A stretch of 64,000 nt of DNA, from assembly GCA_026692865.1 (NCBI GenBank), contig JAPLNI010000059.1, positions 62,001 through 126,000 on the forward strand. The letters are read 5' to 3'. Below, one piece after another: positions 3,044-55,086 of the stretch. A model generated the notes under the pieces. That model had not been told where the DNA came from and searched no databases. It saw only the letters and a program-made list of their open reading frames with translations. The position numbers and the translations under genes are program-made. Positions within the stretch are counted from its first letter, which is position 1. Each line of letters begins with the position of its first letter. The stretch comes from Planctomycetota bacterium (GTDB lineage: Bacteria > Planctomycetota > Planctomycetia > Pirellulales > Pirellulaceae).

Positions 3044-4393
3044 TTAGGCGATTGAGAGGCGTTCGGTTGAGTCGCCGAATTGGTTTAGATCTACGCCCAT
3101 GCGGTTGATTAGGTCGAGGTGTAGGTTTGCCATCGGTGTCCATTCGCCCACTTTTTGATGAATGCCGCCTTTTAGGCCCGCTGATTTTCCACCGGCCAGG
3201 ATCACTGGGAGGTCGTCGTGGTTATGACGATCTCCATCGCAAATGCCGCTACCGTAGACGATCATCGTGTTATCCAGCAGAGATTGTCCAGAGGCGTCCT
3301 TACGGTCTTTCATGATCTTTAAGAAGTATGCGAGCTGCTCACAGTAGAACTGGTCAATTCTGGCAATTTTTTCGAGCCGATCAGGATCTTTTTTGTGATG
3401 TGATAAATCGTGGTGACCATCTGCGATGTTGATATCGCGGAACGAACGATTGCTTCCGTCATGTGCAAACATAAATGTCGCAACGCGAGTCGAATCGGTT
3501 TCAAATGCGAGCGCGAGTACATCTCCCATCAATCGAATATGAGCGCCGTAGCTATCGGGAATTCCTGACGGGGTTGGGTGATCGGGATCGTGAGGTAGTC
3601 CGAATTGCTCCGATTTTTGAATGCGTTGCTCGATGTCACGAATTCCTGCGAGATATTCGTCGAGCTTGTAGCGATCTTCACGTCCTAGGCGTCGATGGAC
3701 TTGGTTGGTTTCTTCTTTTAAGAAGTCAAGCATCGAAAGTTGGCTTGCTTGACGAAGTTCATAGTTCGCTTGTCGTTGACCATGTGTGCCGTTGCCGAAA
3801 AGCCTTTCAAAAACCAATCGCGGATTTGATTCTGGAGCAACCGGAGTGCGTTCGTCGGCCCATGCAAGATTGAATTGATAGGCACATGCGTAACCCGAGT
3901 CACAGCCACCTGACCGGCGTACACCATCGCAAGACAATTCGAGCGATCGAAGTCGAGTCTGATCTGCGAACTTCTGCGCAACGATTTGATCTGCGGAAAC
4001 GCCCAAATGAATATCTGTTCCTGCTGTCTTCAGTGGACGCGAGCCAGTCAAGTAGGTTGCGTTGGCTCGTGCGTGATCGCCACCGCCATCCTTACCGCCG
4101 ATAGCATGCTTGTGAGAGAGCCCGCTAATGAATCGGAGGTCGTTGCGGAATGGCTCGAGTGCTGCGGTTGATCGATTGAAAGTAAGCGTTTCATTTTCAC
4201 CACCCGGACGCCAGTGCTCCATGTTCACTCCGTTCGGAACATACAGGTAACACAATCGTATCGGCGACGATGTCTCAGCCGCAGCGACCGCAGAAGATAC
4301 CAAGCTTGGCATCGCGGGTAACGCGAGGGCTAAACCGGACGCCTTGAGAAAGCTTCGACGTGTTGCAGATAATCGGTTATTTGTATTGGTCAT
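3044..4393 (-). CDS. DUF1552 domain protein, Tat-exported
   Basis: A 449-residue member of the planctomycete DUF1552 family, whose biochemical role is unknown. The N-terminus has a twin-arginine signal (RRSFLKASG, residues about 11-19, then a hydrophobic stretch ending in VSSAVAAAE), which implies export in folded form. An HDGSNRSF block and a D-rich stretch (ADGHHDLSHH) mid-protein look like metal-binding or catalytic residues. I prefer the ATG at 4393 (MTNTNNRLSATRRS) because it puts the RR motif at a normal distance; an upstream in-frame ATG at 4462 would add 23 residues. It lies downstream of a DUF1592 cytochrome-like gene on the same strand. This pairing is common in planctomycetes and suggests a shared extracytoplasmic function. 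Confidence 0.88.
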   Translation of the reverse strand: MTNTNNRLSATRRSFLKASGLALALPAMPSLVSSAVAAAETSSPIRLCYLYVPNGVNMEHWRPGGENETLTFNRSTAALEPFRNDLRFISGLSHKHAIGGKDGGGDHARANATYLTGSRPLKTAGTDIHLGVSADQIVAQKFADQTRLRSLELSCDGVRRSGGCDSGYACAYQFNLAWADERTPVAPESNPRLVFERLFGNGTHGQRQANYELRQASQLSMLDFLKEETNQVHRRLGREDRYKLDEYLAGIRDIEQRIQKSEQFGLPHDPDHPTPSGIPDSYGAHIRLMGDVLALAFETDSTRVATFMFAHDGSNRSFRDINIADGHHDLSHHKKDPDRLEKIARIDQFYCEQLAYFLKIMKDRKDASGQSLLDNTMIVYGSGICDGDRHNHDDLPVILAGGKSAGLKGGIHQKVGEWTPMANLHLDLINRMGVDLNQFGDSTERLSIA

Positions 4394-11288: not shown

Positions 11289-11833
11289 TAATGGAGTTTA
11301 TTCTGCCTTAAGGCCGGCACCATAGTCGACCTGCTAAACATTCTATGTTGAAACCGTGAACTGGGTCACCACCGTAATCGGCAAGTTGGCGAATTTTTCT
11401 AAAAATTTTCGGAAATTAAGCTTCGGCTACCCGTAACTTAACAATAGGTTGATGGGTCAGCTCCAGGTTAATGGGTCAGCTCCGGCTGTTCAACGGGCCG
11501 AAGGAGAGAGGAATGATCCTAAACGCAAGCGTAAGCTTTTGTCGCTTTCAGGACGAAATGTGGCTATCGCGTACTGGTAGCTAGTGATTTGTCCAGTTGA
11601 AACGATGGGGTAGCTGAATTTATAAGAATGAAGATGTAGATGAAAAAAGTTGCAAAAGCAGATGTTTTCAGATGTTCCATAACGTCTGCTACGAGTACAA
11701 ACCCCGCTAATCATCTAGACGAAGCACGAGCCGCGTTGTTGGATGTCGCGCCGCAAGCGTGTGGTTAGTCTTTTGAACTCGGCTAACGCCAGAGGCTCAG
11801 TTTAAATCAATGGTTGAGTTCACTGAGTCGTCT
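11289..11833. other. 545-bp gene-free stretch with short repeats
   Basis: I see no convincing gene here. It holds a 19-bp tandem duplication (GGTTGATGGGTCAGCTCC type, 11446-11483) and a degenerate palindrome at 11651-11699 that matches, on the opposite strand, an element at 51728-51775. The HtrA gene ends at its right border inside a short direct repeat (ACTGAGTCGTCTT twice). Confidence 0.5.
11651..11699 (-). repeat. CGTAGCAGA-type palindromic repeat, copy 1
   Basis: Read on the minus strand, CTCGTAGCAGACGTTATGG and ACATCTGAA correspond to CTCGTAGCAGATGTCGTAAG and ACATCTGAA at 51731-51758. It is a degenerate copy with imperfect pairing. Confidence 0.45.
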
Positions 11834-39916: not shown

Positions 39917-41635
39917 TTACTTACTCTTCAAATCATCTTTCGAGGGCATCCAGATAACGCCGACACGCCGCGCCCAAGTTTCCCAATCGTCCACCATTTT
40001 CTTGATTCTTTCGGGGGACTTTTCAGCGAGGTCGTTTAACTCGCAGCGATCCTCGGCCAAATTGTAAAGCTCCCACTTAAGCTCATGCGGCATTCGCTTG
40101 GAGAAGACAGCTTTCCAGTCGCCTTGTCGCAGCCCATGAGCCTCTTGATGATCAAAACCGATTGTTCGCGTCGGTAGTTTTTCGCCCCGCATCGCTGGCA
40201 TCAGGCTTGTACCTTCGATCGGGGTAACGTTGTGTCCCTCGCGTGTTGATGGATATTTGGCTCCCGTGATTTCGATCAGCGTTGGCATCACATCCATCAA
40301 GTGAGCGGGATCATTGACCCAATTTTCTTGTTTGCCAATTCCTTTCGGCCAATGTGCGATGAAGGGCGTGCTTATCCCACCCTCGTGCGTAAAGTGTTTA
40401 TAAAGTCGAAACGGGGTGTTCCCGAGATTTGCCCAAGCGCTTCCATAAGATTGGTGAGTTCCACGACCGCCAATATTTCGAATTCCTTCGCCTGTTTGCA
40501 TCGTAGTAGTCCCTTTGCGTGAGTCGCCATCGAAACCAAAGGGGCCCCACTCGTAACATGCACCATTGTCACTGAGAAAAAGTATCAGCGTGTTGTCGAG
40601 ACTATTTGTTTTGCGAAGGTGATCGACAATCTTTCCAACGCCCGTGTCGACTCCTTCGACCATCGCAGCGAACACAGCCATGCGACGCGCAAGATCCAAC
40701 TGCCGCTCTTTATCGAGTGAATCCCACGCGGGATTTTCTTGTCCTGGAAAGCCATTTGCTATGTCATCACGATCAACAGGAACAATTGATCGGGGAGAAA
40801 GCTTCCATTGCGGGCCGCTTGCTAAACCTAGCTTCTTCATCCGTTCGAATCGTTCTTCACGCAGTACATCCCATCCCCGCCGATAGATGGCATCGTACTT
40901 GTCTGCGCGTTCCGCTGGCGCTTGCACAGGAAAATGGGGTGAGGAATGCCCGAGGAATACGAACCACGGTTGATTACTGCTCTGGCCTTGTCTGATGAAT
41001 TCTAAAGCGTATTCATTGAAGACGTCGGTTGCGTAATAATCATGTGCGGGCGGAGCGATTTCTTTTTTACGATCCTCGGGTAATCGAATGTTGTAATCGG
41101 CATCGTATTGATCGTGCGAATGTTCGCGGGTGTAGCCGTAAAATTCATCAAAGCCTCTTTTGATCGGCCCTGTTTCTTGATGCATGTGCCATTTGCCAAC
41201 ATAGTAGCAGCCATATCCCGCCGGCTTTAATACTTCAGCGATCGTTGCACATTGATCGCTGAGTCGTCCTAGATATCCTGGACCACGTTTCGCATTCGGT
41301 TTGTCACTCGTAAAGTCACCGATGCCGGCTTGGGTGGGGTACAGACCTGTCATCAAGGAAGCTCGACTGGGACAGCATCTTGCCGAGTTATAGAGCTGTG
41401 AAAAACGCACACCGGCTGTAGCCAACGCATCAATGTTTGGGGTTCTGATTTCGCCTCCATAACAACCCAAGTCGGAGTAGCCTAAGTCATCGGCGAGAAT
41501 CACGATGATATTGGGCTTCTCTGCTGCGTATGCAAAACTAGATGCAAGTGTGGCAAAGATAAAGGATAAAATTCTTCCGTGCTGCATAAAGGGAATCATG
41601 AGTGTTGGTGGTAATCTTCTCAATGTAATCAGCAA
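39917..41635 (-). CDS. sulfatase (formylglycine-type arylsulfatase family)
   Basis: A 572-residue exported sulfatase (S1 family). Signal peptide ends about residue 38 (FIFATLASSFAYAAEK). Metal-binding start NIIVILADDLGYSDLG is followed by the formylglycine site CCPSR (Cys87 to Arg91, the first Cys being converted to formylglycine), then the substrate/metal stretch GKWHMH and FLSDNGAC. It would need a formylglycine-generating enzyme, not seen in this window. Possible alternative starts are Met13 and Met17. The GH5 gene lies downstream with a 64-nt gap. Confidence 0.94.
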   Translation of the reverse strand: MLITLRRLPPTLMIPFMQHGRILSFIFATLASSFAYAAEKPNIIVILADDLGYSDLGCYGGEIRTPNIDALATAGVRFSQLYNSARCCPSRASLMTGLYPTQAGIGDFTSDKPNAKRGPGYLGRLSDQCATIAEVLKPAGYGCYYVGKWHMHQETGPIKRGFDEFYGYTREHSHDQYDADYNIRLPEDRKKEIAPPAHDYYATDVFNEYALEFIRQGQSSNQPWFVFLGHSSPHFPVQAPAERADKYDAIYRRGWDVLREERFERMKKLGLASGPQWKLSPRSIVPVDRDDIANGFPGQENPAWDSLDKERQLDLARRMAVFAAMVEGVDTGVGKIVDHLRKTNSLDNTLILFLSDNGACYEWGPFGFDGDSRKGTTTMQTGEGIRNIGGRGTHQSYGSAWANLGNTPFRLYKHFTHEGGISTPFIAHWPKGIGKQENWVNDPAHLMDVMPTLIEITGAKYPSTREGHNVTPIEGTSLMPAMRGEKLPTRTIGFDHQEAHGLRQGDWKAVFSKRMPHELKWELYNLAEDRCELNDLAEKSPERIKKMVDDWETWARRVGVIWMPSKDDLKSK

Positions 41636-41893: not shown

Positions 41894-42787
41894 TTACTTT
41901 TGCGTGGCGAGCGTTTTCGCGGTCTGCATTGCTACTTTACTCAGTCCAACCATCGAATTGCAGATGATCAAATTTGAATTGTTATCTGGCCCCATAGTCA
42001 GCGAAGCGAGTTCGGAGGCGTGACGGCCGCCTACGATAAAAACGGTCTTGTTTACCTGGGCTACCTCGGCGAGTTTTAGAACTTCGGCTCGATGGCTGTT
42101 ACTACGTAATGGTTCGGAAATGCTGAGCCACAAGAGGCTTGGTTGTTCATCGATGACAGCATCTGCTAAAACATCCAGTGGGGTATTGGGGCCCAAGTTA
42201 GTCTCATTAAATTCAGCCTCCTGTAAGACTAGGGAAGCCATGAGGGTTGGCAGGAAATATACTTCACCGCTCATGGCGCCACCGATAGCTACGGGAGCAT
42301 CTTCATCCGGCGTTCCAACCGAAAGTCGCAACTGATTCAACGCTCTTTCGCAGAGGATCGTCGCGCGGTGCTCAATAAAAATAGCTCGCTTGTCATGTGG
42401 CCAGCGCTCACCAATATGTTTCAGAGCCATCGCGATCGGACCATCACACAATTCGGCGACGCTCATCCCTGACGCAAACAACCACTGCATCAATCCAGTA
42501 ACCGCAGTAGCATGACCCTCTTCCAAAACATGAATCATATCTTCGATTGGAGAATTGGAGCGGACCTGTTCCAGGACGCGATCCATTCCCAGCAGTTCTG
42601 GCTCAACAAGATTCGCGTGCGTAGCTCGAACATAGCGAATCGCTTCAGAGACAGGGATACGCCGGTGCCCACCGCGCGTGCGATATACTCCCAAGTCGCC
42701 GGTGTCGAACAATCGACGAACGGACGACTCACTTAGACCGAGTGCTCTGGCGAATTCGGATGTGGATAGGGTGCGGACTGCTGACAT
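41894..42787 (-). CDS. CarH/LitR-like MerR-type regulator with altered cobalamin-binding domain
   Basis: A 297-residue transcription factor divergent from the rhodopsin/carotenoid genes. Residues about 6-55 form a MerR-type winged helix (LSTSEFARALGLSESSVRRL, then TRGGHRRIPVSEAI). Residues about 60-155 form the four-helix bundle of photosensitive CarH proteins, with the W-x9-EH motif (Trp129, Glu139, His140). Residues about 160-297 match the B12-binding Rossmann domain (LGPNTPLDVLA). But in the ligand motif E-x-H-x-x-G the histidine is replaced by Tyr177 and the glycine by Pro180 (GEVYFLP). Cobalamin binding by His is therefore not possible as in Thermus CarH. Start chosen at ATG 42787; a longer frame to 42946 exists but reads AT-rich DNA. 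Function as repressor of the pigment genes is inferred. Confidence 0.85.
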   Translation of the reverse strand: MSAVRTLSTSEFARALGLSESSVRRLFDTGDLGVYRTRGGHRRIPVSEAIRYVRATHANLVEPELLGMDRVLEQVRSNSPIEDMIHVLEEGHATAVTGLMQWLFASGMSVAELCDGPIAMALKHIGERWPHDKRAIFIEHRATILCERALNQLRLSVGTPDEDAPVAIGGAMSGEVYFLPTLMASLVLQEAEFNETNLGPNTPLDVLADAVIDEQPSLLWLSISEPLRSNSHRAEVLKLAEVAQVNKTVFIVGGRHASELASLTMGPDNNSNLIICNSMVGLSKVAMQTAKTLATQK

Positions 42788-43092
42788 ATTCGGAATAGAT
42801 TTGGTAAATTCAACCAGTATCTGAGATTTTGACCAAAAGGAAAAATCTTTTAAAATTTTTAACTTCTTCACATCGGATTTCATTAGGGAAACTGCCAAAA
42901 CTATCTCGGGAAAACTGAATAACTGGAAAGTTCTCGAAAAAAACATTTAGCGGGAACCAAAATCACCTTGACAGGTGCGGACAATACCACGCCGGTGCGT
43001 GTTGGTAGTTTTTAGCTTGCCATGCCGGACACCCACGTAGGGGGATCTCCCCGTGGGATGGTTGCGTTTCTTTCACTCAAAGGGTTTTTCCA
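42788..43092. promoter_or_regulatory. divergent regulatory region between the CarH-like gene and the rhodopsin gene
   Basis: A TTGACA box (42968-42973) lies exactly inside an inverted repeat CACC-TTGACA-GGTG (42964-42977), and GGTGCG recurs at 42974 and 42994, 20 bp apart, on the same face of the helix. These are possible operator half-sites. No good -10 box is evident. A strong hairpin (CCCACG/CGTGGG with inner GGG/CCC, 43032-43057) sits 36 nt before the rhodopsin ATG. The part near the regulator is AT-rich. Confidence 0.5.
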
Positions 43093-43947
43093 ATGCTCGA
43101 GTCGATATCAGTGTTGGCCGCAGGTATGCCTGACCTGTCGGTCTTTCAGTTTTCCATCGTGGATAACATTTTCTCCATGACGGTCGCCACCATGGGGGCT
43201 GCGGCGATCTTCTTGTTCCTCTCAAGATCGTCGGTAGACGAGGCATACCGACCAGCACTTTTGGTCAGTGGCTTGGTAGTTTCAATCGCTTGTTACCACT
43301 ACTTTATGATCCGTCACTCCTGGCAAGGTGCGTTTGTTTTAGCCGACGGAGGCTACAAAGGATCGGGAGCAGCGTTCAACGACTTCTATCGATACGCTGA
43401 CTGGATTTTGACCGTTCCATTGTTGATGGTTGAATTAGTAGCCGTTCTGCGATTGCAAGCAGGCAAAGCCACGTCGTTGCTGACGCGATTAGTGATCGCG
43501 GCCGCTTTGATGATTGCCTTAGGGTATCCCGGAGAAGTCATTTCCAGTCCTGAAGGTTGGAGTGCACGGGTCATGTGGGGTGTACTTTCGTCGATCCCAT
43601 TCTTCTACATTCTGTTTGTGCTTTGGGTCGAGTTGACGAATTCGCTTGACACACAACCAGCTGCTGCACGTAGGTTGATCGAAATTGCACGTTTGGTGTT
43701 ACTCATCACTTGGGCCGTGTATCCAATCGCTTACGCATTTGGAGGAACGATGACTGCTTTGGAAGCAAAGGCGGGCGGCAATGTTGATCCATCAGGGATC
43801 GTTGCGTTGCAAGTCGGTTATGCGATCGCCGATATGACTGCAAAAGCCGGCTTCGGTATGTTGATTTACTTCATCGCGCGAGCCAAGAGCAAGGGAAGTT
43901 ACGGTAACGCGTTAGGCGAAACCGCGGGTGCTTCTGTCATTGCTTAG
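43093..43947 (+). CDS. xanthorhodopsin-type light-driven proton pump
   Basis: A 284-residue seven-helix microbial rhodopsin. The retinal Schiff-base lysine is Lys251 in IADMTAKAGFGML. Helix C is RYADWILTVPLLMVEL: Arg100, Asp103 (proton acceptor), Thr107 and Glu114 (donor), the D-T-E set of outward proton pumps. His69 in CYHYF corresponds to the acceptor-coupled His of proteorhodopsin and xanthorhodopsin. Leu111 at the tuning position predicts green absorption. The stretches LGYPGEV, PIAYAFGG and SGIVALQVGYAIAD match Salinibacter xanthorhodopsin closely. Gly163 (MWGVLSSIPF) aligns with the xanthorhodopsin glycine that leaves room for a carotenoid antenna. It heads a six-gene operon making retinal. 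Confidence 0.97.
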   Translation: MLESISVLAAGMPDLSVFQFSIVDNIFSMTVATMGAAAIFLFLSRSSVDEAYRPALLVSGLVVSIACYHYFMIRHSWQGAFVLADGGYKGSGAAFNDFYRYADWILTVPLLMVELVAVLRLQAGKATSLLTRLVIAAALMIALGYPGEVISSPEGWSARVMWGVLSSIPFFYILFVLWVELTNSLDTQPAAARRLIEIARLVLLITWAVYPIAYAFGGTMTALEAKAGGNVDPSGIVALQVGYAIADMTAKAGFGMLIYFIARAKSKGSYGNALGETAGASVIA

Positions 43948-44033
43948 TCTTTAGATTGGTAATCAGTGCGACCGCATGTCTCAAAGTATGCGGTTGCCAT
44001 AAGTTGTTAAGTTTTGCAGCCTCCGGTGCTCGA

Positions 44034-45050
44034 ATGATTCTCGCTTCCATCTACATTGCGATTTGCACTGCCTCGATCGGCAGCGTGTTCATGCTCGGAG
44101 CACCGGATTGGCGGGTTCTTGCATTACTTGCCGCCATATCCGTCGCAGTTGTTGGCGTTCCTCATGGCGGGTTGGATCATTGGGCAGGGAGGCGTTTGCT
44201 GTCGCGTCGTTTTTCGGACCGATGGTGGCTTGTGTTTTTCATTTCGTATCTCTCAGTCGCTGTAGGCTTCGCGGCATCTTGGATTGCTTTTCCTGTTCTA
44301 ACTGTGCTTGTGTTTTTTATCGCCTCCGCTTGGCACTTTGGACGTGAAGATCACAAAGCAAACTTAAATGTCGGTAGCGGTCGCCAGCAAATCAAGATAA
44401 TGCAAAAGGTGTTTGGGCACGTCCAATGTATGGCCGTGGGTGGGTTGGTGATATGGGTTCCCGCTCTCATGCGACCGGACGAGATGCTTTGGCTACTTCG
44501 TTCGATCATTCCTGCTTCTGGATCAGGTGGTGATGCTCAAGAGGTCGTTCTGTGGACACAATGGTTAAGCTTGATTCTCGTCCCGATCGCTGCGTTCGTA
44601 ATTACCATAAATGTTTTGAGCGATCCTAATGAATTGAAGCAATGGGTGCCGGTCGCAACAGTGGCGATTAGCGTTTTCACTCCGATCTTGTTGTCGTTTA
44701 CGATCTTTTTTTGTGCTTGGCACTCTATTCAAGGTCTACGTAGGCTTCAACGACGAGAGCGACTTACCAATATCCAATTTGCTTGGGCGACGTTTCCAAT
44801 GTCGGCGATGGCCGTTGCTGGAATAGTGTTCATTGGGTGGTTCTTTCAAGATGCAACCTCGGCATTCGCAGTCGGGGAACAATCACCTGTTCTGCAAACA
44901 TTGTTCATCGGATTATCCGCGATCGCGGTGCCTCATCTGTTATTGCATGAGATGGAAGATGGTGCGAGCTATTTAAGAAGCGACGGCATCCGGCAATCAG
45001 CGAATTCCTATGCGGATACGCTAAGGCTTCAAAAAGGAACTGCGTCATGA
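44034..45050 (+). CDS. blh: beta-carotene 15,15'-dioxygenase, Brp/Blh family
   Basis: A membrane iron enzyme that splits beta-carotene into two retinals. With the ATG at 44034 it has 338 residues (an upstream TTG at 43956 gives 364). Several helices carry the conserved His motifs of Blh: GVPHGGLDHW, SAWHFGREDH, CAWHSIQGLR and AVPHLLLHE. It follows the rhodopsin with a short gap, and crtY begins inside its stop (ATGA overlap). Supplying chromophore to the rhodopsin is its obvious job. Confidence 0.94.
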   Translation: MILASIYIAICTASIGSVFMLGAPDWRVLALLAAISVAVVGVPHGGLDHWAGRRLLSRRFSDRWWLVFFISYLSVAVGFAASWIAFPVLTVLVFFIASAWHFGREDHKANLNVGSGRQQIKIMQKVFGHVQCMAVGGLVIWVPALMRPDEMLWLLRSIIPASGSGGDAQEVVLWTQWLSLILVPIAAFVITINVLSDPNELKQWVPVATVAISVFTPILLSFTIFFCAWHSIQGLRRLQRRERLTNIQFAWATFPMSAMAVAGIVFIGWFFQDATSAFAVGEQSPVLQTLFIGLSAIAVPHLLLHEMEDGASYLRSDGIRQSANSYADTLRLQKGTAS

Positions 45051-46276
45051 GATTGGCTGATCCAACAAACACGTCGGTGAAGTCTGCCGACTATGTTCTC
45101 GTCGGCGGCGGTTTGCAAAGCGGCTTGATGGCCTTAGCGATTCGACATCATCGCCCCGAAGCCAAGATCGTTATTCTGGAACGCGAATCTAAACTCGCTG
45201 GCAATCACACTTGGTCATTTCATGCGAGCGATATTCCTGCCAGTTGCCATGCGTGGGCGGGTTCCTTGATCGAGTCGCGATGGCCCGGTTATCAAATCAT
45301 CGTCGGCGGCAGAACACGGCAGGTTGATATGCCCTATGTCACCTGTTCGTCTGAGCATTTTGCAACGGTAATCACCGAGGGACTCCGCGAAGGAGATTGC
45401 CAAGTTTTAACCGATACGACTGCGACAGACATTACAGCGAACTCGGTTCGATTGGCCGACGGCACACGCTTGACAGCAACTACTGTCATCGACAATCGCG
45501 GCCCTTCCCGACTCGAGATCGCTTCCTTTTCAGGTGGCTTTCAAAAATTTTGGGGCTTTGAGATCGAGCTGTCGAATGATTGGCCTTTCGAGAATCCAAT
45601 CGTGATGGATGATCGCGTCGATCAAACGGACGGCTTCCGATTCGTTTACACATTGCCCATGGAGCGACGCCGTGTGCTAGTGGAAGACACCCGATTTTCG
45701 AATACACCCACCATCGATCGCGATGAATGCTTTAAGCAAGTGACCGACTATTTGAAGGCTCGCGATTGTGGTGACTATCGCATTGTTCGGGAGGAGAGTG
45801 GGGTTCTGCCAATGCCCACTACTGGCTTTATGCCCGGGAATCCATTGCCGCATTTGGCTGGCGGCTATCGCGGTGGTTGGTTTCATGCTGCGACTGGCTA
45901 TTCTTTTCCGCTTGCGATCCAGTTGGCCGAGCTTGTTGCGATTACGCCCGTCGACAAGCTGTCGGAGGCTATGCAACAACTGAAGCTGCAGAATACTGGG
46001 CGTGCACGGTTCGCAAGATTTCTAAACCGATTGCTATTCGAGTTGGTAAAGCCGCATACTCGCTACCAAATCTTTCGTCGCTTTTACAGAGTGCTTGACG
46101 AACCTGCAATTGCAAGGTTCTACGGTCATCGATTCACGTGGTCCGATGCTTTTCGTATTGTCGTTGGCGTCCCACCTGGAGGGTTGAGGCCCTGGAACTT
46201 TTTGCGTTCGTTCATGAAATCAAAGTCGAAGCCAGCTAACTATCCATCGGCGGTCAGCAAAAGGGTACCAGCATGA
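45047..46276 (+). CDS. crtY: lycopene beta-cyclase, CrtY type
   Basis: A 409-residue FAD/NAD(P)-binding flavoenzyme cyclising lycopene at both ends to beta-carotene. The dinucleotide motif VLVGGGLQSGL is at about residues 17-27, then ESKLAGNHTWSFH, RQVDMPYVTCSSEHF, and GGYRGGWFHAATGYSFPLA near 285 are CrtY/CruA-independent signatures of the proteobacterial-type CrtY. It overlaps blh by 4 nt and crtE by 4 nt. Confidence 0.94.
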   Translation: MRLADPTNTSVKSADYVLVGGGLQSGLMALAIRHHRPEAKIVILERESKLAGNHTWSFHASDIPASCHAWAGSLIESRWPGYQIIVGGRTRQVDMPYVTCSSEHFATVITEGLREGDCQVLTDTTATDITANSVRLADGTRLTATTVIDNRGPSRLEIASFSGGFQKFWGFEIELSNDWPFENPIVMDDRVDQTDGFRFVYTLPMERRRVLVEDTRFSNTPTIDRDECFKQVTDYLKARDCGDYRIVREESGVLPMPTTGFMPGNPLPHLAGGYRGGWFHAATGYSFPLAIQLAELVAITPVDKLSEAMQQLKLQNTGRARFARFLNRLLFELVKPHTRYQIFRRFYRVLDEPAIARFYGHRFTWSDAFRIVVGVPPGGLRPWNFLRSFMKSKSKPANYPSAVSKRVPA

Positions 46277-47295
46277 ATTCTTACGCTCAACGATTGCTCG
46301 ATCAATCCTTGTTCGGCCCCGTCAACGACTTTACCGGGTGCCAAGGCAAGCGCATTCGCAGCTCGCTACTGCAACTTAGTTACGAACTTTCAGGCGGGGT
46401 GGGACCTTTGTCGCCAGCCATCAGCGAAGCGATCGAAAGCTTGCATGCTGGATCGCTGGTAATCGATGATATCCAGGATGATTCGCAATCTCGACGCGGA
46501 CAGCAAACCATGCATCACAGGATCGGCGTACCTCTGGCAATCAACGCTGGAAACTGGATGTATTTTCATGCACTGGAGTGCTTAAGCGCTGCTCCGTTAC
46601 CAATGGAACAACGGGATCGATTGCTGGCTTCCATGATCCGTGCAGCCAGGCAATGCCACGAGGGGCAAGCAATCGATTTGCATTCGCGAGTGGATCGTGT
46701 TCCCGCTATGCATTGGCACGAGGCTACGTTGGCAATCAGCACGCTGAAGACTGGCGAGCTAGTATCGTTAGCAGTCGATATGGGCAGCATTGCAGCCAAC
46801 CCTAATTCACCATTGTCGGGTGCACTGCGCAAGTTTGGTCGACAAATCGGCATCGCTTTGCAAATGCGAAACGACCTAGACGAGCTTGCCAAGATTGCTC
46901 AAGCCGAAGCCACGTCCCAGGCGATCCATTCCATTCGCGATGAGGATCTCCGCAATGCAAGATTAACTTGGCCGTGGGTATGGGCTTTTGAATTGCAAGA
47001 AATGAATGGTAGAAACGACCGATGCGCATCTATGTTGCAACGTATTGTTTTCTCAGAGCGAGATCGGCACAATGTTGCCGTCGAACTTTTCGCAATCGTT
47101 GGAACGCATGGCGACCAAGTGATTCGTTCGCTCGTTCGCGACCAATTGAGATTGTTGGGGGAGCATGTGCTGGATGAACGAATGCTCCACGCTCTTGGTG
47201 AAATTCTTGAGCCAATCGAACGACCGATCGCTGCTGCCAAACTGCCTGATAAGATGCTTGTGAACTCTTTCCTGGGTAATGTAAGCCATGGATAG
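46273..47295 (+). CDS. crtE: polyprenyl (geranylgeranyl) diphosphate synthase
   Basis: A 340-residue trans-isoprenyl diphosphate synthase. First Asp-rich motif DDIQD (65-69) is intact, with GKRIRSSLL upstream for IPP binding. The second motif, normally DDxxD, reads NDLDE (200-204), so the first Asp is Asn and the last Glu. Position before crtI and crtB implies GGPP production. Overlaps crtI by 8 nt. The altered second motif makes product length or activity worth checking. Confidence 0.9.
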   Translation: MNSYAQRLLDQSLFGPVNDFTGCQGKRIRSSLLQLSYELSGGVGPLSPAISEAIESLHAGSLVIDDIQDDSQSRRGQQTMHHRIGVPLAINAGNWMYFHALECLSAAPLPMEQRDRLLASMIRAARQCHEGQAIDLHSRVDRVPAMHWHEATLAISTLKTGELVSLAVDMGSIAANPNSPLSGALRKFGRQIGIALQMRNDLDELAKIAQAEATSQAIHSIRDEDLRNARLTWPWVWAFELQEMNGRNDRCASMLQRIVFSERDRHNVAVELFAIVGTHGDQVIRSLVRDQLRLLGEHVLDERMLHALGEILEPIERPIAAAKLPDKMLVNSFLGNVSHG

Positions 47296-48886
47296 CCACT
47301 CAGCATTGAAGGATGTACCTTCCCTCGAAACCAGCGATTTGCGAACTCCACTTGGTCATAGCAATTTCTCTAGCAGTACATCTCACTGCGGCCGAGCGGC
47401 AGTGATTGGCAGCGGATTTGGAGGTCTTGCCGCGGCGATTCGATTACAAGCGATGGGGTTCGAAACCGTTTGTTACGAGGGTCGAGATAAGGCAGGTGGA
47501 CGGGCCTACGTCTATCGCGACGCGGGCTTCACCTTTGACGCTGGGCCGACTGTAATCACAGCGCCCCATTGTTTAGAAGAACTTTTCGAAGCCGGTGGTG
47601 AAACGATGTCGGATCACGTGGAATTGATCCCGGTCGACCCGATGTACCGATTGCAATGGCCCGATGGCATGCATTTTGATTACAGCAGCAATGAATCCCT
47701 CTTATTGGAACAGATTCGACGATGCTCGCCTGGGGATGTCGAGGGCTATCACCGCTTTGCTGCCTATACGAAAAAGGTATTCGAGAAGGGGTATTTGGAA
47801 CTCGGGGCCACTCCTTTCTTGAACTTTCGAGATATGATCCGTTGTGCACCCGACTTGATGAAGCTTCGCGCGGACCGCAGCGTTTATTCGGCCGTTTCAA
47901 GATTCGTCAAGGATGAACATCTGAGACAGGCCTTCAGCTTTCATCCGTTGCTCGTCGGTGGCAACCCTATGCAGACCAGTTCCATTTACACTTTGATTCA
48001 CTGGATCGAAAGAAAATGGGGAGTGTTTTTTCCTCGCGGTGGTACAGGAGCTCTAGTCGAAGCGTTGGTTGCTCTTTTTCAGCGTCTGGGTGGCGAGATC
48101 CGCCTCGAGACACCGGTCGAGAAGATCTTGGTGAAGAACGATCAACACGGTCGAACAAAGCATGAAGTCCACGATCAATACGGGCAGCACGAAACGTTTG
48201 ACTTGGTTGTCTCCAACGCGGATATCCATCATACCTATTCTAATTTGTACCGAGACCATTCAGGCGGTCGTACGATGAGTCGCAAGCTTGAGAAGTTGGA
48301 TTGGTCGATGTCGCTGTTCGTGATGTACTTTGGAACGAATCGACGTTACGACAACTTGGCACATCACACCATCCTGTTTGGGCAGCGATACCAAGGATTG
48401 CTGCGAGACGTCTTCCATGGTAGCACGTTGCCGAAAGACTTTAGTCTTTATCTGCACGCTCCGACGGTGTCTGATCCTGCAATGGCACCGCCTGGTGGCG
48501 AAGCGTTCTATGTGCTCAGCCCAGTTCCACACTTGGGGCGAGCCAACATCGATTGGGAACAAGTGGCCCAAAATTATGGCGATGCGATTTTAGAGTCCTT
48601 GGAAACACATCTACCGGGTCTTCGACAATCGATCGTCACTAGAAGGCACTTTACGCCAGTCGATTTCCGAGACCAACTTAACGCGTTCCACGGATCCGCA
48701 TTCTCTGTTGCTCCCAAGCTAACTCAGAGTGCCTATTTCCGGCCTCACAACAAATCGGAGAAGGTACCGGGTCTATATATCGTTGGTAGTGGAACTCATC
48801 CAGGCGCAGGTGTGCCAGGGGTGATCAATACAGCCAAGGCAACGGTCGGTATTATCGCTCAGGATTTTGCAGAGGTGCTTCGATGA
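47288..48886 (+). CDS. crtI: phytoene desaturase, CrtI type
   Basis: A 532-residue FAD-dependent desaturase that turns phytoene into lycopene. The FAD motif VIGSGFGGLAAAIRLQ is at about residues 39-54, with GRDKAGGRAYVYRDAGFTFD just after. The C-terminal signature GLYIVGSGTHPGAGVPGVIN is complete. The first 35 residues, rich in Ser and Thr, are an extension before the usual start. It overlaps crtE by 8 nt and crtB by 4 nt. Confidence 0.96.
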   Translation: MDSHSALKDVPSLETSDLRTPLGHSNFSSSTSHCGRAAVIGSGFGGLAAAIRLQAMGFETVCYEGRDKAGGRAYVYRDAGFTFDAGPTVITAPHCLEELFEAGGETMSDHVELIPVDPMYRLQWPDGMHFDYSSNESLLLEQIRRCSPGDVEGYHRFAAYTKKVFEKGYLELGATPFLNFRDMIRCAPDLMKLRADRSVYSAVSRFVKDEHLRQAFSFHPLLVGGNPMQTSSIYTLIHWIERKWGVFFPRGGTGALVEALVALFQRLGGEIRLETPVEKILVKNDQHGRTKHEVHDQYGQHETFDLVVSNADIHHTYSNLYRDHSGGRTMSRKLEKLDWSMSLFVMYFGTNRRYDNLAHHTILFGQRYQGLLRDVFHGSTLPKDFSLYLHAPTVSDPAMAPPGGEAFYVLSPVPHLGRANIDWEQVAQNYGDAILESLETHLPGLRQSIVTRRHFTPVDFRDQLNAFHGSAFSVAPKLTQSAYFRPHNKSEKVPGLYIVGSGTHPGAGVPGVINTAKATVGIIAQDFAEVLR

Positions 48887-50121
48887 GAAGTGAACTGGTC
48901 AATGAGGTAACAACACAATCAACAAACATTGCAGGTCAAAAGGCTGGAACAGCCAATGAGGTCATTCAGCGATCCAGTCGTTCGTTTTCGCTAGCGGTTC
49001 GTTTCTTGCCGGCTCCATTTCGCCAGCATGTGACGGCTCTTTATGCTTGGTGTCGCAGCGTCGATGACACGGTGGATCAAGCTTCTGATCTAAAGCATGC
49101 AGAGGAAGCACTTCAAGTTCTGGATGTGGATCTTCAGCGAATCGCTATAGGCAAAGCGATCCAGCATCCCGCTTCAACTTGGATCGAACCGCTGATAGCC
49201 AATCGTGCGATTAACCCACAGCACGCCAGCGAGTTGATCGAAGGTATGCGAATGGACTTAAGCGGGTATCGCGTCGAAACCGAGGCCGACTTGGAACGCT
49301 ACTGTTACCATGCTGCGGGGACTGTGGGTTTGATGATGACGCAATTGATGGGAGTGCAAGATCGCAAAGCCGATCTGCATGCAGTTGCTTTAGGAGTTGC
49401 GATGCAGATGACCAACATTGCCCGGGATGTACGCGAAGATGCCGACCGAGGGCGATCTTATCTGCCTGGCATCCCAAATCCGTTGACCACGGACCCTGAG
49501 GCAGTCAAAGCGTCTGTAGCCAAGCTATTGGAACTGGCGGAACAACATTATCAAACAGCCGTGGCGGGAATGCATTATTTACCTTGGAACTGCCGCATGA
49601 GTATCCGCGTCGCCATGCATGTCTACCGCGAGATCGGTCGCCAGATCCAACGTAATCAATTCGATGTACTGCATAAGCGAACGGTGCTTAGCAAACCCAG
49701 ACTATTTGCGACTGCTTTGTTAGCGACGGTCGCCTCGGTAAAAGACGATGTTCAAATCTCAACGAAACGCTTTCTTAGTTCTGTTACTTTCTATACGAAG
49801 GAAATCAAAATGAACGATCCAATCAATTCACAATCCTCGCAACAACTCAGTGCACTGAAGCAAGCCAAGCATACGGTGTATTTGGGGCTATCACTCACGT
49901 TGATCATGGCCACTGCGTTATTCTCGATGGTCTTTTTCAATCCTAAGAGTAGCGAGTACTCTTATCTGCCATTGATCTACGCCGGGATAAGCTTGGTTGG
50001 CGGAGTTCTATTTAATCGATTAGCAGCACGTTGCGACACGGCGGTAGTCGCGGTGAATGTCCATCCTTCTAACTTGCCAGCATCTCCCTCGCCGGAGATC
50101 TATGGAAAGCAGCCCACCTAA
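48883..50121 (+). CDS. crtB: phytoene synthase CrtB with C-terminal membrane extension
   Basis: A 412-residue protein. Residues about 25-300 are a squalene/phytoene synthase: first Asp motif DDTVD (61-65), second DVRED (182-186) with RGRSYLP after it, and the RSFSLAVRFLP N-terminal stretch. It joins two GGPP to phytoene. From about 330 it carries two hydrophobic helices (TVYLGLSLTLIMATALFSMV and YLPLIYAGISLVGGVLF), absent from ordinary CrtB. An in-frame ATG at 49810 (residue 310) preceded by GAAGGAAATC could start a separate 103-residue membrane peptide covering that extension. Last gene of the pigment operon. Confidence 0.92.
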   Translation: MRSELVNEVTTQSTNIAGQKAGTANEVIQRSSRSFSLAVRFLPAPFRQHVTALYAWCRSVDDTVDQASDLKHAEEALQVLDVDLQRIAIGKAIQHPASTWIEPLIANRAINPQHASELIEGMRMDLSGYRVETEADLERYCYHAAGTVGLMMTQLMGVQDRKADLHAVALGVAMQMTNIARDVREDADRGRSYLPGIPNPLTTDPEAVKASVAKLLELAEQHYQTAVAGMHYLPWNCRMSIRVAMHVYREIGRQIQRNQFDVLHKRTVLSKPRLFATALLATVASVKDDVQISTKRFLSSVTFYTKEIKMNDPINSQSSQQLSALKQAKHTVYLGLSLTLIMATALFSMVFFNPKSSEYSYLPLIYAGISLVGGVLFNRLAARCDTAVVAVNVHPSNLPASPSPEIYGKQPT

Positions 50122-51912: not shown

Positions 51913-53634
51913 TTACTTACTTTTGCCTTTTTCTTTCGCGGGTGGCTTCCAAGCGATGACGCCGACGCGATTAGACCAGGCTTCCCATTGAGCGGTCATG
52001 GCTTGCACGCGTTCGGGGTGCTGTTGAGAAAGATCTTGCATCTCGGTTCGATCAGAGCTGATGTTATAGAGCTCCCAACCACCTGGATGCTTCGAGACTA
52101 GTTTCCAGGCCCCGTCGCGAATTGCTCGGTTTCCTTCGTGCTCCCAGAAGATAGGTTGCGATCGGTTCAATGGCTTGCCGTTGAAGGCTGACGCGAGGTT
52201 TACCCCTTCCGTTGGTTGAATCGATTCACCGGAGAATTCGGTCGGATACTTGGCTCCCGAAAGCCCGATACATGTCGACATCAAATCGATCAAATGAGCT
52301 GGTTGCGATTCAAGGGCGCCATGTCGTTGGCTTTGAATACCTGCTGGCCAATGCGCAATAAGAGGCGTGCTGATTCCACCTTCGTGTTGCCAATGCTTGT
52401 ATAAACGAAAAGGTGTGTTGCTTACGTTTGCCCACGATTCGCCATAAGCAACGAAAGTATCAGCACCTCCAGGCATGACTCCTTCGCCTTGTCGCACTGG
52501 GAAGCCATCGCGAGTTTGCTTCGGGACCATATCGGGTTGAAGGTAGTCGCTGGCCAAGGGGGGAAGGCTTGGCTTGTCTAGTCGCGCGACAAATGGTCCT
52601 TTGCGACCGTTTTCTTCGGCGCAACCGCCGTTGTCTTGCAAGTAAAGAATCAGCGTATTCTCAAGTTGTCCATTCGCCTTTAACGAATCGACCAAGCGGC
52701 CAATCCCTTGATCCATACAATCCAGCATCGCAGCAAAGACTTCCATGCAGCGTGATTCCCAGGCTTTGTTCTCGACCTCGCTCCAGTCACCAACCTGGGG
52801 CGATACTTGCCAACGATTATCTAGCAGTCCAAGTTGTTTCATCTTCGTCAGTCTCGTTGCTCTGACCGTGTCATAACCCGAATCGTATCGACCTTTGTAC
52901 TTTGCTATGTCAGTTTCTTTCGCATGCATCGGCCAATGAGCGGCCGTATGAGCCATGTACATGAAGAATGGTTTTTCAGGGCTCTGTTGTTTGTGTTCGT
53001 TCACAAAGCGTACGGCATGATCATTGATTGCATCGGTATAATAGAATTCTTTGGGTTGATATTCTTGGTCTGCAAACGGCGAGATAAATGTATTGTCGCG
53101 CACAAGCGTATTGGGATCAAAGAAACTACCTGCACCGTGGATGGTCCCGTAGAATCGATCAAACCCGCGTTGAAGCGGCCAGTTGGTAAAATTGGATTCG
53201 CTTGATAGATTTGTCTTGCCGGTTACGTGCCATTTTCCGGTCATGTAAGTCGAATAGTTGGCCGACTTGAGAGCTTCAGCAATCGTGACAGCTCGTTTGC
53301 TAAGTTCGCCGGTGTAAGCTGGCGCACCTTGCTTCGTCGTCCAACCATCGACCATGTGTCCGATTCCGGCTTGATGAGGATAGAGCCCCGTGAGCAGAGA
53401 GGCTCGCGTCGGACAACACCGGGCAGTGTTGTAGAACTGGGTGAATCGAACTCCGCCCGATGCAAGCTTGTCCAGATTGGGCGTCTCGATCTCACCACCA
53501 TAACAACCGACGTCTGAGTATCCAACGTCATCAGTCATGATGATGATAATATTCGGCGGACGTTCGACGGCCCAGGCTGCACTTAAACATCCAGCGAATG
53601 AGAAAACAAGAGAGCACAATAAATGCTTAGTCAT
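51913..53634 (-). CDS. sulfatase (formylglycine-type)
   Basis: A 573-residue exported sulfatase. Signal peptide (LVFSFAGCLSAAWAVE), metal-binding NIIIIMTDDVGYSDVG, formylglycine motif CCPTR (Cys73 to Arg77), GKWHVTGK and LYLQDNGGC. It closely resembles the sulfatase at 39917 in length and motifs, so the two are probably paralogues. It is the last gene of a minus-strand set with another sulfatase 21 nt upstream. Confidence 0.94.
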   Translation of the reverse strand: MTKHLLCSLVFSFAGCLSAAWAVERPPNIIIIMTDDVGYSDVGCYGGEIETPNLDKLASGGVRFTQFYNTARCCPTRASLLTGLYPHQAGIGHMVDGWTTKQGAPAYTGELSKRAVTIAEALKSANYSTYMTGKWHVTGKTNLSSESNFTNWPLQRGFDRFYGTIHGAGSFFDPNTLVRDNTFISPFADQEYQPKEFYYTDAINDHAVRFVNEHKQQSPEKPFFMYMAHTAAHWPMHAKETDIAKYKGRYDSGYDTVRATRLTKMKQLGLLDNRWQVSPQVGDWSEVENKAWESRCMEVFAAMLDCMDQGIGRLVDSLKANGQLENTLILYLQDNGGCAEENGRKGPFVARLDKPSLPPLASDYLQPDMVPKQTRDGFPVRQGEGVMPGGADTFVAYGESWANVSNTPFRLYKHWQHEGGISTPLIAHWPAGIQSQRHGALESQPAHLIDLMSTCIGLSGAKYPTEFSGESIQPTEGVNLASAFNGKPLNRSQPIFWEHEGNRAIRDGAWKLVSKHPGGWELYNISSDRTEMQDLSQQHPERVQAMTAQWEAWSNRVGVIAWKPPAKEKGKSK

Positions 53635-53655: not shown

Positions 53656-55086
53656 CTACTTATCGAAATCGATTAATGGTTTGGGGTTGCTCACGCGACC
53701 AAGCTCGCGTGAACCTGGTGCGGGACCATCCAGACCAAGGTCTGTGCTCATGGTGGTGATGAGACCTTGAAGCTCCGCAACGATTTTCGGGTGTTCGGCG
53801 GCAACATCTTTCGATTCGCCAATGTCGGACTTGAGATTGAAAAGTATTGGCGTGAACGGTGGCGTGGCTTTCTTTTGGTTCGCTGGTTTGTCTTGATCGA
53901 TGACCAGCTTCCAGTCTTGATGTCGCACGGCCTGGAGCTTCATTCCTTTGTAGTAAAAGAAAGTCTCGTGAGCAGGCTTTACCGAAGAGTCACCGGTGAG
54001 ATGATGCATGATGTTCGCTCCATCAATTCTTCGATCGGTTGGGACTGTGGCACCTGCAAGCGAAGCCAAGGTTGGCAACACATCAAACATTCCACAGATC
54101 GCGTCGGTCGAGGTGCCAGCCGGGATCTTCTTGGGCCACCACGCGATGGTCGGGACTCGCATCCCGCCTTCCCAAGTACTCGCTTTGTGACCTCGTAATG
54201 GATCATTCACAGCACGAGGCGTCCCGCCGTTGTCGCTAGTAAATATCACTAAGGTGTTTTCGCTTAGTCCTTGAGTACGGATCGTGTCGAGCACGCGTCC
54301 TACGCTCCAGTCAACTTCTTCTACCCAATCCGAGTACAGCCCATTACCAGATTTTCCAACCCATTTTTTTCCTGGATAGAGCGGGAAGTGAACTGCGTTG
54401 TGAGGAAGATAAAGAAAGAAAGGTTTCGTTTTGTTTTCCTCGATAAACTTGACGGCTTCATCGGTGTAGATTTCAACCAACGACTGCTGGTCGTCGGGAA
54501 GAACTCGCTTTACTACTTGTCCATTGCGTAGCAGTGGCAATGGCGGTTGGTTCCCTTTTGAATTCTTTGGCAAAGGGGCACCCAAATCGCTTTTCACACC
54601 ATCTTCGGACGGACCCATATCGTTCGAATAAGGGAGTCCGAAATGCAAGTCAAAGCCTTGCTTGTTCGGAAGGAATTCGGGTTGATCACCCAAGTGCCAC
54701 TTTCCAACGATTGCGGTCGCGTAACCGACTTCCTTTAGGACTTCCGCAACGGTGATCTCGTTTGGTGATAGCCCCATATTGTTCGCCGGGAACAAAACTC
54801 CCGGAATAGGAAGAGCACGCTTTGGATAGCAACCGGTCATCAGTGCCGTCCGCGATGGAGAGCAAACGGGAGCGGCATAAAAAGACGTAAGCTTACAACC
54901 CTCGCTGGCCATCCGGTCGAGAACTGGCGTTCTATTCAGCTTCGAACCGAAAGGGCCAATGTCTGCATACCCAAGATCATCGATATTGATCACGATGAAG
55001 TTTGGTTTCGATGCAGCACTGGATACAGCCGCGTTCGCGAACAGAGTCACGAACGTGAGTGACAGTAATGTGAGGACGATTTTCAT
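53656..55086 (-). CDS. sulfatase (formylglycine-type, short)
   Basis: A 476-residue exported sulfatase of the arylsulfatase-A-like type. Signal peptide (TLLSLTFVTLFANAA), NFIVINIDDLGYADIG, formylglycine motif CSPSR (Cys75 to Arg79), GKWHLGDQ and FTSDNGGTPRA. The motif set is that of the galactosamine/glucose-sulfatase-like group common in planctomycetes. Together with neighbours it points to stepwise desulfation of a polysaccharide. Confidence 0.94.
   Translation of the reverse strand: MKIVLTLLSLTFVTLFANAAVSSAASKPNFIVINIDDLGYADIGPFGSKLNRTPVLDRMASEGCKLTSFYAAPVCSPSRTALMTGCYPKRALPIPGVLFPANNMGLSPNEITVAEVLKEVGYATAIVGKWHLGDQPEFLPNKQGFDLHFGLPYSNDMGPSEDGVKSDLGAPLPKNSKGNQPPLPLLRNGQVVKRVLPDDQQSLVEIYTDEAVKFIEENKTKPFFLYLPHNAVHFPLYPGKKWVGKSGNGLYSDWVEEVDWSVGRVLDTIRTQGLSENTLVIFTSDNGGTPRAVNDPLRGHKASTWEGGMRVPTIAWWPKKIPAGTSTDAICGMFDVLPTLASLAGATVPTDRRIDGANIMHHLTGDSSVKPAHETFFYYKGMKLQAVRHQDWKLVIDQDKPANQKKATPPFTPILFNLKSDIGESKDVAAEHPKIVAELQGLITTMSTDLGLDGPAPGSRELGRVSNPKPLIDFDK

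Follow-up and report, generated by a model that had tools for sequence, protein, structure and literature searches.

The stretch analysed here (the window; 64,000 nucleotides of a Planctomycetota bacterium, assembly GCA_026692865.1, contig JAPLNI010000059.1, positions 62,001 to 126,000 of the forward strand) contains a cassette of seven genes at 41894–50121. Six of them, for a rhodopsin and the synthesis of its retinal, are read from the plus strand (43093–50121), and the seventh, encoding a regulator, is divergent on the minus strand. The cassette is real, intact and, for this group, an ordinary retinal/xanthorhodopsin operon. It probably works as an operon making a retinal/xanthorhodopsin pump under a dedicated switch of CarH fold, the cue for which would be a non-classical one. 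An open reading frame (ORF) check of the window found all seven ORFs intact. The gene order is rhodopsin-blh-crtY-crtE-crtI-crtB, with overlaps of 4 nucleotides (nt) between blh and crtY, 4 nt between crtY and crtE, 8 nt between crtE and crtI and 4 nt between crtI and crtB. The order, overlaps and divergent regulator reported in an earlier note on this sequence are thus borne out, with matching families and no broken gene.

The regulator gene (41894–42787, minus strand) most likely starts at 42787 (MSAVRTLST..., 297 amino acids) rather than at 42946, judging from alignment with its relatives, which would make the intergenic region 305 bp long. Family matches, alignment and structure prediction together give it a CarH fold, with a helix–turn–helix (HTH) motif, a four-helix bundle and a Rossmann-type B12-binding domain. 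The first two match their Pfam families above the cut-off (PF12728, HTH_17, and PF02607, B12-binding_2). The third scores below it (PF02310, 22.5 bits against 32.1) and is supported by an AlphaFold2 model with a mean predicted local distance difference test score of 87.9 (ten-sequence alignment). The model is nearest to CtMerR (8JBS; Z 19.8, root mean squared deviation 3.0, 219 residues) and to photocobilins (Z 18.1–18.5), while TtCarH (Z ~15.4), the AppA SCHIC domain (15.3), MetH (15.8) and a corrinoid protein (15.5) all score about the same. CarH and class I LitR proteins (T. thermophilus, 5C8D; CtMerR) have the same three-part arrangement, and the likeness extends to the Wx9EH and GxxxP motifs and to a neighbourhood of carotenoid genes. 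They differ from the window regulator in the ligand position described below, in its match to HTH_17 and in the period of its candidate operator. The NCBIfam CarH equivalog model gives 35.9 bits against a cut-off of 400.

In the available portion of PMC11796333 the signature of light-responsive B12 proteins is GxxW, EH, GxxH and GxxxP, the His of GxxH being the lower cobalt ligand, and excerpts of the review PMC8156234 define CarH homologues by ExHx2G... plus Wx9EH. The same His is given as the lower axial ligand in the accessible descriptions of CtMerR and SasPcob. The regulator clade comprises 14 members, window included, which score at least 173 bits in 240 family genomes, the next match being at 145 bits. 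Wx9EH is complete in 11 of the 14 and in the window protein, and GxxxP is present in 13, but 7 lack the Gly of GxxH and the cobalt-ligand His (ExHx2G/GxxH) is replaced throughout, by Tyr in 13 members including the window and by Phe in one (L152). A set of 16 paralogous Pirellulaceae regulators, the best-scoring ones with loci given from a longer list, has Tyr at this position in 15 and Ser in one (L173), and all 16 read ER where EH would be expected. A Thermus CarH-like gene (L144) keeps every element, His included, and the alignment is therefore able to detect the His. Neither plain decay nor a classical His-on cobalamin fits well with the conserved Tyr. Judged by these motifs, the regulator has the framework of a CarH without being one, and since the cobalt-ligand His is a Tyr, a B12 light sensor is not to be assumed. 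The description of the regulator as CarH/LitR-like in the earlier note consequently holds for fold and architecture but fails at the cobalt ligand and at the motif that defines CarH.

A true CarH was also sought elsewhere in the genome. Five PF02607 matches were found and none qualifies: they are a MetH-type gene (named by eye), the window regulator, two paralogs combining an HTH and a B12 domain in which Tyr or some other residue stands in place of the His, and one protein dissimilar to the regulator.

The intergenic regions between regulator and rhodopsin share a second feature. In 11 of them Gibbs sampling (12 restarts, and 4 for each control shuffle) recovers the motif G[AG]CAGTTTTGG[CT]AGTTTTT[AG] at 20.4 bits, compared with 12.05–12.85 bits in six shuffled sets; these shuffles, like those behind the site thresholds and the paralog comparison below, preserve base composition only. 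The motif is a direct repeat with a period of 9 only, its self-similarity reaching 1.13 at offset 9 and not exceeding 0.04 at any other offset between 5 and 13. Excerpts of PMC8156234 describe CarH operators as 11-bp direct repeats; if the motif is an operator, its 9-bp period departs from that type. The window has two such operator-like repeats, GATAGTTTTGGCAGTTTCCC on the regulator side (42886–42905, minus strand) and GTGCGTGTTGGTAGTTTTTA on the rhodopsin side (42995–43014, plus strand), which score 18.1 and 12.4 bits respectively in leave-one-out tests against a shuffle 95th percentile of 8.0. With weights trained on all 11 regions, which also served to find the positions, they are the top two sites of the entire 64 kb (20.8 bits for 42995–43014, 17.4 for 42886–42905, next 12.8), and the site at 42886–42905 was not part of the training. 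A site exceeds the shuffle threshold by leave-one-out in all 11 regions, and stretches outside the training set, L075 and L193 (both from genome G223) and L195, contain sites of 26.9, 19.4 and 21.3 bits.

The strongest hint that the repeats may be binding sites for the regulator comes from the paralogs, because two branches of the regulator family each carry a 9-bp repeat of their own. Upstream of the paralogous regulators the pattern GRACGTTTTGRACGTTTT, also of period 9, occurs with at most 3 mismatches at 11 of 17 loci, each match being better than 100 of 100 shuffles; six of the matched loci had gone into devising the pattern, and the remaining 11 loci supply 5 independent matches. A genome-wide search of the host with GRYAGTTTTGRYAGTTT gives a single exact match, inside 42886–42905, where it is exact by construction as the pattern was written with this site in view. 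Elsewhere there are 15 places with two mismatches each and none with fewer, a total of 16 compared with 22 for the control.

The regulator is closely associated with the cassette. Rhodopsin is present in 13 of the 14 genomes of the regulator clade. Counting the window, there are 11 loci where the regulator and rhodopsin genes are immediate neighbours in divergent orientation; in G223 and G175 both genes lie at contig ends. The fourteenth genome (G122, 88% complete) has a remnant cassette (L194, 889–4756, genes assigned by eye) with a truncated regulator and a truncated crtB, together with crtY and crtE, from which rhodopsin, blh and crtI are missing, and no motif was found in this remnant. Over the 66 rows of the rhodopsin tree that could be judged, regulator and motif occur together in 11 and are both lacking in 54, and one (L091) has the motif only, with a doubtful remnant ORF at the place of the regulator. 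The other 14 of the 80 rows were set aside for short upstream sequence, and L075 was counted with the regulator, as the G223 regulator ends at a contig end. This co-occurrence on the tree is suggestive.

Several observations weigh against a dedicated switch or against the evidence offered for it. As 55 of the 66 judged rows lack the regulator, the switch is dispensable for the cassette, and 12 of the 54 rows with neither element lie outside Planctomycetia. On the tree the link between regulator and motif comes down to five changes, a number with which an independent-pairs test cannot reach significance; a manual cut at about 12 bits decided which rows were labelled as having the motif, and under a looser rule (3 bits above the shuffle threshold of each region) sites are also accepted in 7 of the 69 rows that have no adjacent regulator. 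Close relatives are included in the training set (window–L049, L039–L044), so that the leave-one-out values are not independent. The best site of the window is lower than that of 9 of the 10 other regions, and its rhodopsin-side site is too degenerate to match GRYAGTTTTGRYAGTTT. Promoter-like sites on the plus strand (42781–42810 and 42829–42856; 2 found, 0.3 expected) lie more than 230 nt before the rhodopsin gene, and the same search of this region found none on the strand of the regulator. MetH and the corrinoid protein match the regulator model about as well as TtCarH does, and the comparison barely tests the DNA-binding part. Finally, the second Asp-rich motif of CrtE is altered (see below). 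Inspection by eye, with no family scan, of the ORFs upstream of 13 cassettes (12 without regulator, and L091 with its doubtful remnant) showed no obvious replacement for the regulator.

From this material we infer DNA binding, repression, autoregulation and the nature of the cue as follows. The six forward genes would form one operon that makes geranylgeranyl diphosphate and leads from it through phytoene, lycopene and β-carotene to retinal, which would be inserted into a green-absorbing xanthorhodopsin pump to give a light-dependent proton motive force. The divergent gene would supply a dedicated regulator of CarH architecture. Its binding sites would be the tandem 9-bp direct repeats ((A/G)CAGTTTTG twice) on the regulator side and on the rhodopsin side, from which it would most likely repress both genes until the cue arrives, with autoregulation probable. 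CarH and CarA serve as models here, and they make repression the likelier sign. Classical photolysis of adenosylcobalamin (AdoCbl) is most likely not the cue, because the His that ligates cobalt in the structurally known CarH-type photoreceptors is here a conserved Tyr. The pocket could instead hold a cobalamin with a different ligation or a tetrapyrrole of another kind, or the domain could act as a ligand-free or partner-controlled dimerization module.

What occupies the pocket, if anything, can be read in more than one way. The regulator could still be a functional AdoCbl light sensor, with base-off cobalamin, Tyr, water or nothing below the cobalt, and light breaking the Co–C bond. The retention of Wx9EH, which caps the adenosyl group, and of GxxxP is in keeping with this, as are the nearness of the predicted fold to CtMerR and photocobilins and the intact DxHxxG of the MetH-type gene, from which the cell probably uses B12. 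Nevertheless, the lower-ligand His is missing from all 14 members, half of which have also lost the Gly of GxxH, this His is the axial ligand in the related structures mentioned above, and the excerpted review counts ExHx2G in the motif that defines CarH; such a sensor is consequently considered unlikely. Equally, the pocket could bind heme or another tetrapyrrole with the Tyr as iron ligand, in the manner of the AppA SCHIC domain, and sense redox state, oxygen or light through it. Tyr can ligate ferric heme, and the SCHIC domain, which we take to bind heme, has structures that match the model as well as TtCarH does; the persistence of Tyr in both the rhodopsin-linked and the paralogous regulators suggests a role and not decay. 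Fold similarity, however, does not show a ligand, one clade member has Phe and one paralog Ser, and the resemblance to AppA, presumably not an HTH regulator, is a match of the B12-type fold alone, so that heme binding is likewise judged improbable.

A further reading dispenses with a ligand: the regulator would be a repressor of the type of CarA, the carotenoid-operon regulator of Myxococcus xanthus, or the effector of a separate photoreceptor, like the class II LitR that serves a short LOV protein. CarA represses without needing B12 according to excerpts of PMC8156234, as the window regulator may, and in the accessible text of PMC9758184 PmlR2 is the effector of PmSB-LOV. On the other hand, the excerpted review gives CarA a B12 motif and no Wx9EH, the reverse of the window regulator, and in class II LitR nothing but the four-helix bundle is left, whereas a Rossmann part is predicted here, even with PF02310 below its cut-off. 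The rhodopsin is moreover the only photoreceptor in the cassette, the genome not having been searched for LOV proteins. This reading is therefore regarded as doubtful, and a CarH-fold switch with a non-classical cue is preferred.

The rhodopsin (43093–43947, plus strand; PF01036, 1.1e-37) is by its sequence and its place in the tree predicted to be a xanthorhodopsin-type light-driven proton pump. The D-T-E triad that the earlier note had claimed is confirmed, and the retinal Lys, the active-site His and the Gly at xanthorhodopsin position 156 are present as well; a role of this Gly in antenna fenestration is described in the available part of PMC13043013. The best matches in the PDB are xanthorhodopsin, Gll0198, psXR and Kin4B8, aligned over nearly the whole length, and all of these we take to be pumps. 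The triad, Lys and Gly are shared with Salinibacter ruber xanthorhodopsin (3DDL), Gloeobacter Gll0198 (6NWD) and Kin4B8 (7YTB). Both residues of the spectral-tuning column are Leu, and Leu at position 93 leads to green absorption according to excerpts of PMC9878933. The adjoining regulator gene might suggest that the rhodopsin is a light sensor and not a pump, but with the triad and all retinal genes present, these nearest structures and no transducer in the cassette, this is very improbable.

Other rhodopsins were met among the loci compared. L033 (9038–9829) has a rhodopsin of another type with a D-T-K triad, beside the same kind of regulator and motif; there the switch is therefore paired with a different rhodopsin. 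L060 (G171, C221), in a genome matching Rubripirellula obstinata, contains a second rhodopsin with an N-D-Q triad, presumably that of sodium pumps. L031 and L032 each contain a second, distant rhodopsin gene after crtB; of their first rhodopsin genes, that of L031 looks broken and that of L032 has the Glu of the triad changed to Ala.

The gene set for retinal is complete, all genes being on the plus strand. Three enzymes exceed curated cut-offs: Blh, β-carotene 15,15'-dioxygenase (43956–45050; TIGR03753, 149 bits, cut-off 95), CrtY, lycopene β-cyclase (45047–46276; TIGR01789, 298 bits, cut-off 215), and the CrtI-family phytoene desaturase (47288–48886; TIGR02734, 640 bits, cut-off 238). The four His motifs of Blh are conserved among relatives, and its start may be the in-frame ATG at 44034 instead of the TTG at 43956. 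The CrtE-like polyprenyl diphosphate synthase (46273–47295; PF00348, 3e-40) and the CrtB-like phytoene synthase (48883–50121; PF00494, 2.5e-69) are matched at Pfam level, with the NCBIfam equivalog models below cut-off. The first DDxxD of CrtE is intact, as in 52 of 52 cassette members, whereas the second Asp-rich motif is NDxxE; in the genome's two other polyprenyl synthases this second motif is DDxxD. As the N is invariant in all 49 alignable cassette members, window included, the alignment suggests that the function of CrtE has been kept rather than lost. In CrtB the Asp residues of the two motifs are largely conserved (39 to 45 of 45).

The C-terminal end of CrtB (49810–50121, plus strand) is a hydrophobic module of about 100 amino acids, judged by eye to be likely two membrane helices. 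It has no Pfam match and is present in 19 of 46 CrtB reading frames, window included. L068 was counted twice as lacking the module, but in fact has it, a frame change splitting its CrtB; in L046 the match lies in a separate, overlapping ORF (3315–3626).

Enzymes of CrtZ, CrtW or CrtO type were not recognized in searches of the genome, which did not cover P450 hydroxylases. Two FA_hydroxylase genes (PF04116; one OlsE-like, one unnamed) and four FA_desaturase genes (PF00487; three DesA-like and one with a weak likeness to GntB) are present, none of the six being named as a carotenoid enzyme, and nothing exceeds the cut-off for CrtO. The genome thus differs from Salinibacter ruber xanthorhodopsin and its relatives in having no recognized ketolase or hydroxylase for a known antenna carotenoid, and a classical keto- or hydroxy-carotenoid antenna is not evident from its genes. 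Since the fenestration Gly is nevertheless present, an antenna, if there is one, would need β-carotene itself, an unrecognized enzyme or an outside supply. The cassette had been called self-contained in the earlier note, and this is right for the retinal genes but is qualified by the NDxxE of CrtE and by the enzymes not recognized here.

The genome (5.55 Mb, 99.4% complete) has one rhodopsin. The host is placed in the Pirellulaceae, probably in the genus of a pond Planctomycetaceae metagenome-assembled genome (MAG; L066) and the family of Rubripirellula obstinata CECT 8602 (L069), in agreement with the planctomycete origin assumed from the outset. Rhodopsin was found in 32 of 241 family genomes (31 over the cut-off), in 11 of 68 genera, and in none of 14 control genomes; cultured Rubripirellula obstinata carries the cassette. 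A synteny check in planctomycetes, as the earlier note had proposed, shows all six genes colinear in 43 of 80 named loci, with a colinear subset in 33 and another arrangement in 4, and in 19 of 31 family loci; many of the subset loci are cut by contig ends, and Armatimonadota-type loci show rhodopsin alone. The six-gene order is more than chance. In Phycisphaerales the order differs (rho-crtI-crtB-crtY-blh-crtE; L131).

The rhodopsin tree, likewise proposed there, comprises the window and 79 named loci, 80 rows in all, the eightieth locus (L133) being too short, and is rooted on Armatimonadota and Thermus. It is a quick tree, for which the program warned of long branches meeting. Pirellulaceae, Gemmataceae and other Planctomycetia form one group in it (66 rows, Shimodaira–Hasegawa-like approximate likelihood ratio test 89), and the window, which lies inside this planctomycete clade, pairs with L066 with support 99.

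The cassette could conceivably have arrived recently by horizontal transfer, as a mobile phototrophy island. Its spread in the family is patchy, and on the contig of a sister species (L049) homology to the window stops at the regulator and at crtB, with different flanks. This last result favours the term island used in the earlier note, whereas the base composition of the cassette, which is that of its surroundings, does not. The rhodopsin also belongs to the planctomycete clade, with the sister species supported at 99, and the gene order is common to Gemmata and Fimbriiglobus MAGs. Loss and rearrangement account for the pattern equally well, G122 being an example of loss. Recent acquisition is accordingly very unlikely, and the recent island was dismissed on the flat composition and the clade of the rhodopsin. 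The cassette is of a known kind, patchily spread and not special to this genome.

Around the cassette, sulfatase-like genes (named by eye) lie on both sides, at 39917–41635, 51913–53634 and 53656–55086. The L049 contig has a short inverted repeat at about 11313–11414 that recurs at C58 and C26 of the genome to which the window belongs, and a search for an empty site with the flanks gave short inverted-repeat matches only. The rhodopsin leader contains a GC-rich hairpin (CCCACG...CGTGGG, about 43030–43062, by eye), and in the L049 hairpin bases are changed with the pairing kept. A known riboswitch or other Rfam element was considered for the leader, but at gathering thresholds the window yields only a tRNA.

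Rhodopsins in planctomycetes are less neglected than the earlier note supposed when it described those of cultured Pirellulales as rarely discussed. Five green rhodopsins of freshwater planctomycetes were published in 2019 (PMC6461901, in the available text), and Planctomycetota are among the rhodopsin-bearing cyanosphere MAGs of 2026 in the accessible part of PMC13043013, which reports brp/blh and carotenoid genes beside rhodopsins in general. These green-light rhodopsins resemble that of the window, but the passages of the two papers at hand make no mention of a divergent regulator or operator. The excerpted comparison of deep-sea and surface planctomycete isolates has no rhodopsin (PMC11588811), and in that of a spring bloom with 92 Planctomycetota MAGs the phylum is not named among rhodopsin carriers (PMC9878933), which counts against a wide role. 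In open-licence PubMed Central, where absence is weak evidence, no paper was found on CarH in planctomycetes and no description of the regulator–motif pair.

The new part is the switch, a dedicated pair of regulator and motif that appears to be a variant of the CarH design. In our judgement it is little understood when bacteria build rhodopsin pumps, and this cassette, its small regulator and a short repeat motif together make up a compact circuit. The regulator breaks the GxxH rule of SignatureFinder for B12 photoreceptors, and a screen demanding GxxH would presumably pass over it. Tentatively, planctomycetes may possess a separate class of CarH-fold switches with a conserved Tyr for His and tandem 9-bp direct repeats, one branch of which would serve solely as the on–off control of rhodopsin phototrophy, by means of chromophore or cofactor chemistry undescribed for this fold. 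If the regulator still senses light, it would represent a second ligation chemistry in the photobiology of the B12 fold, and if it does not, an example of the reuse of a light-sensor fold.

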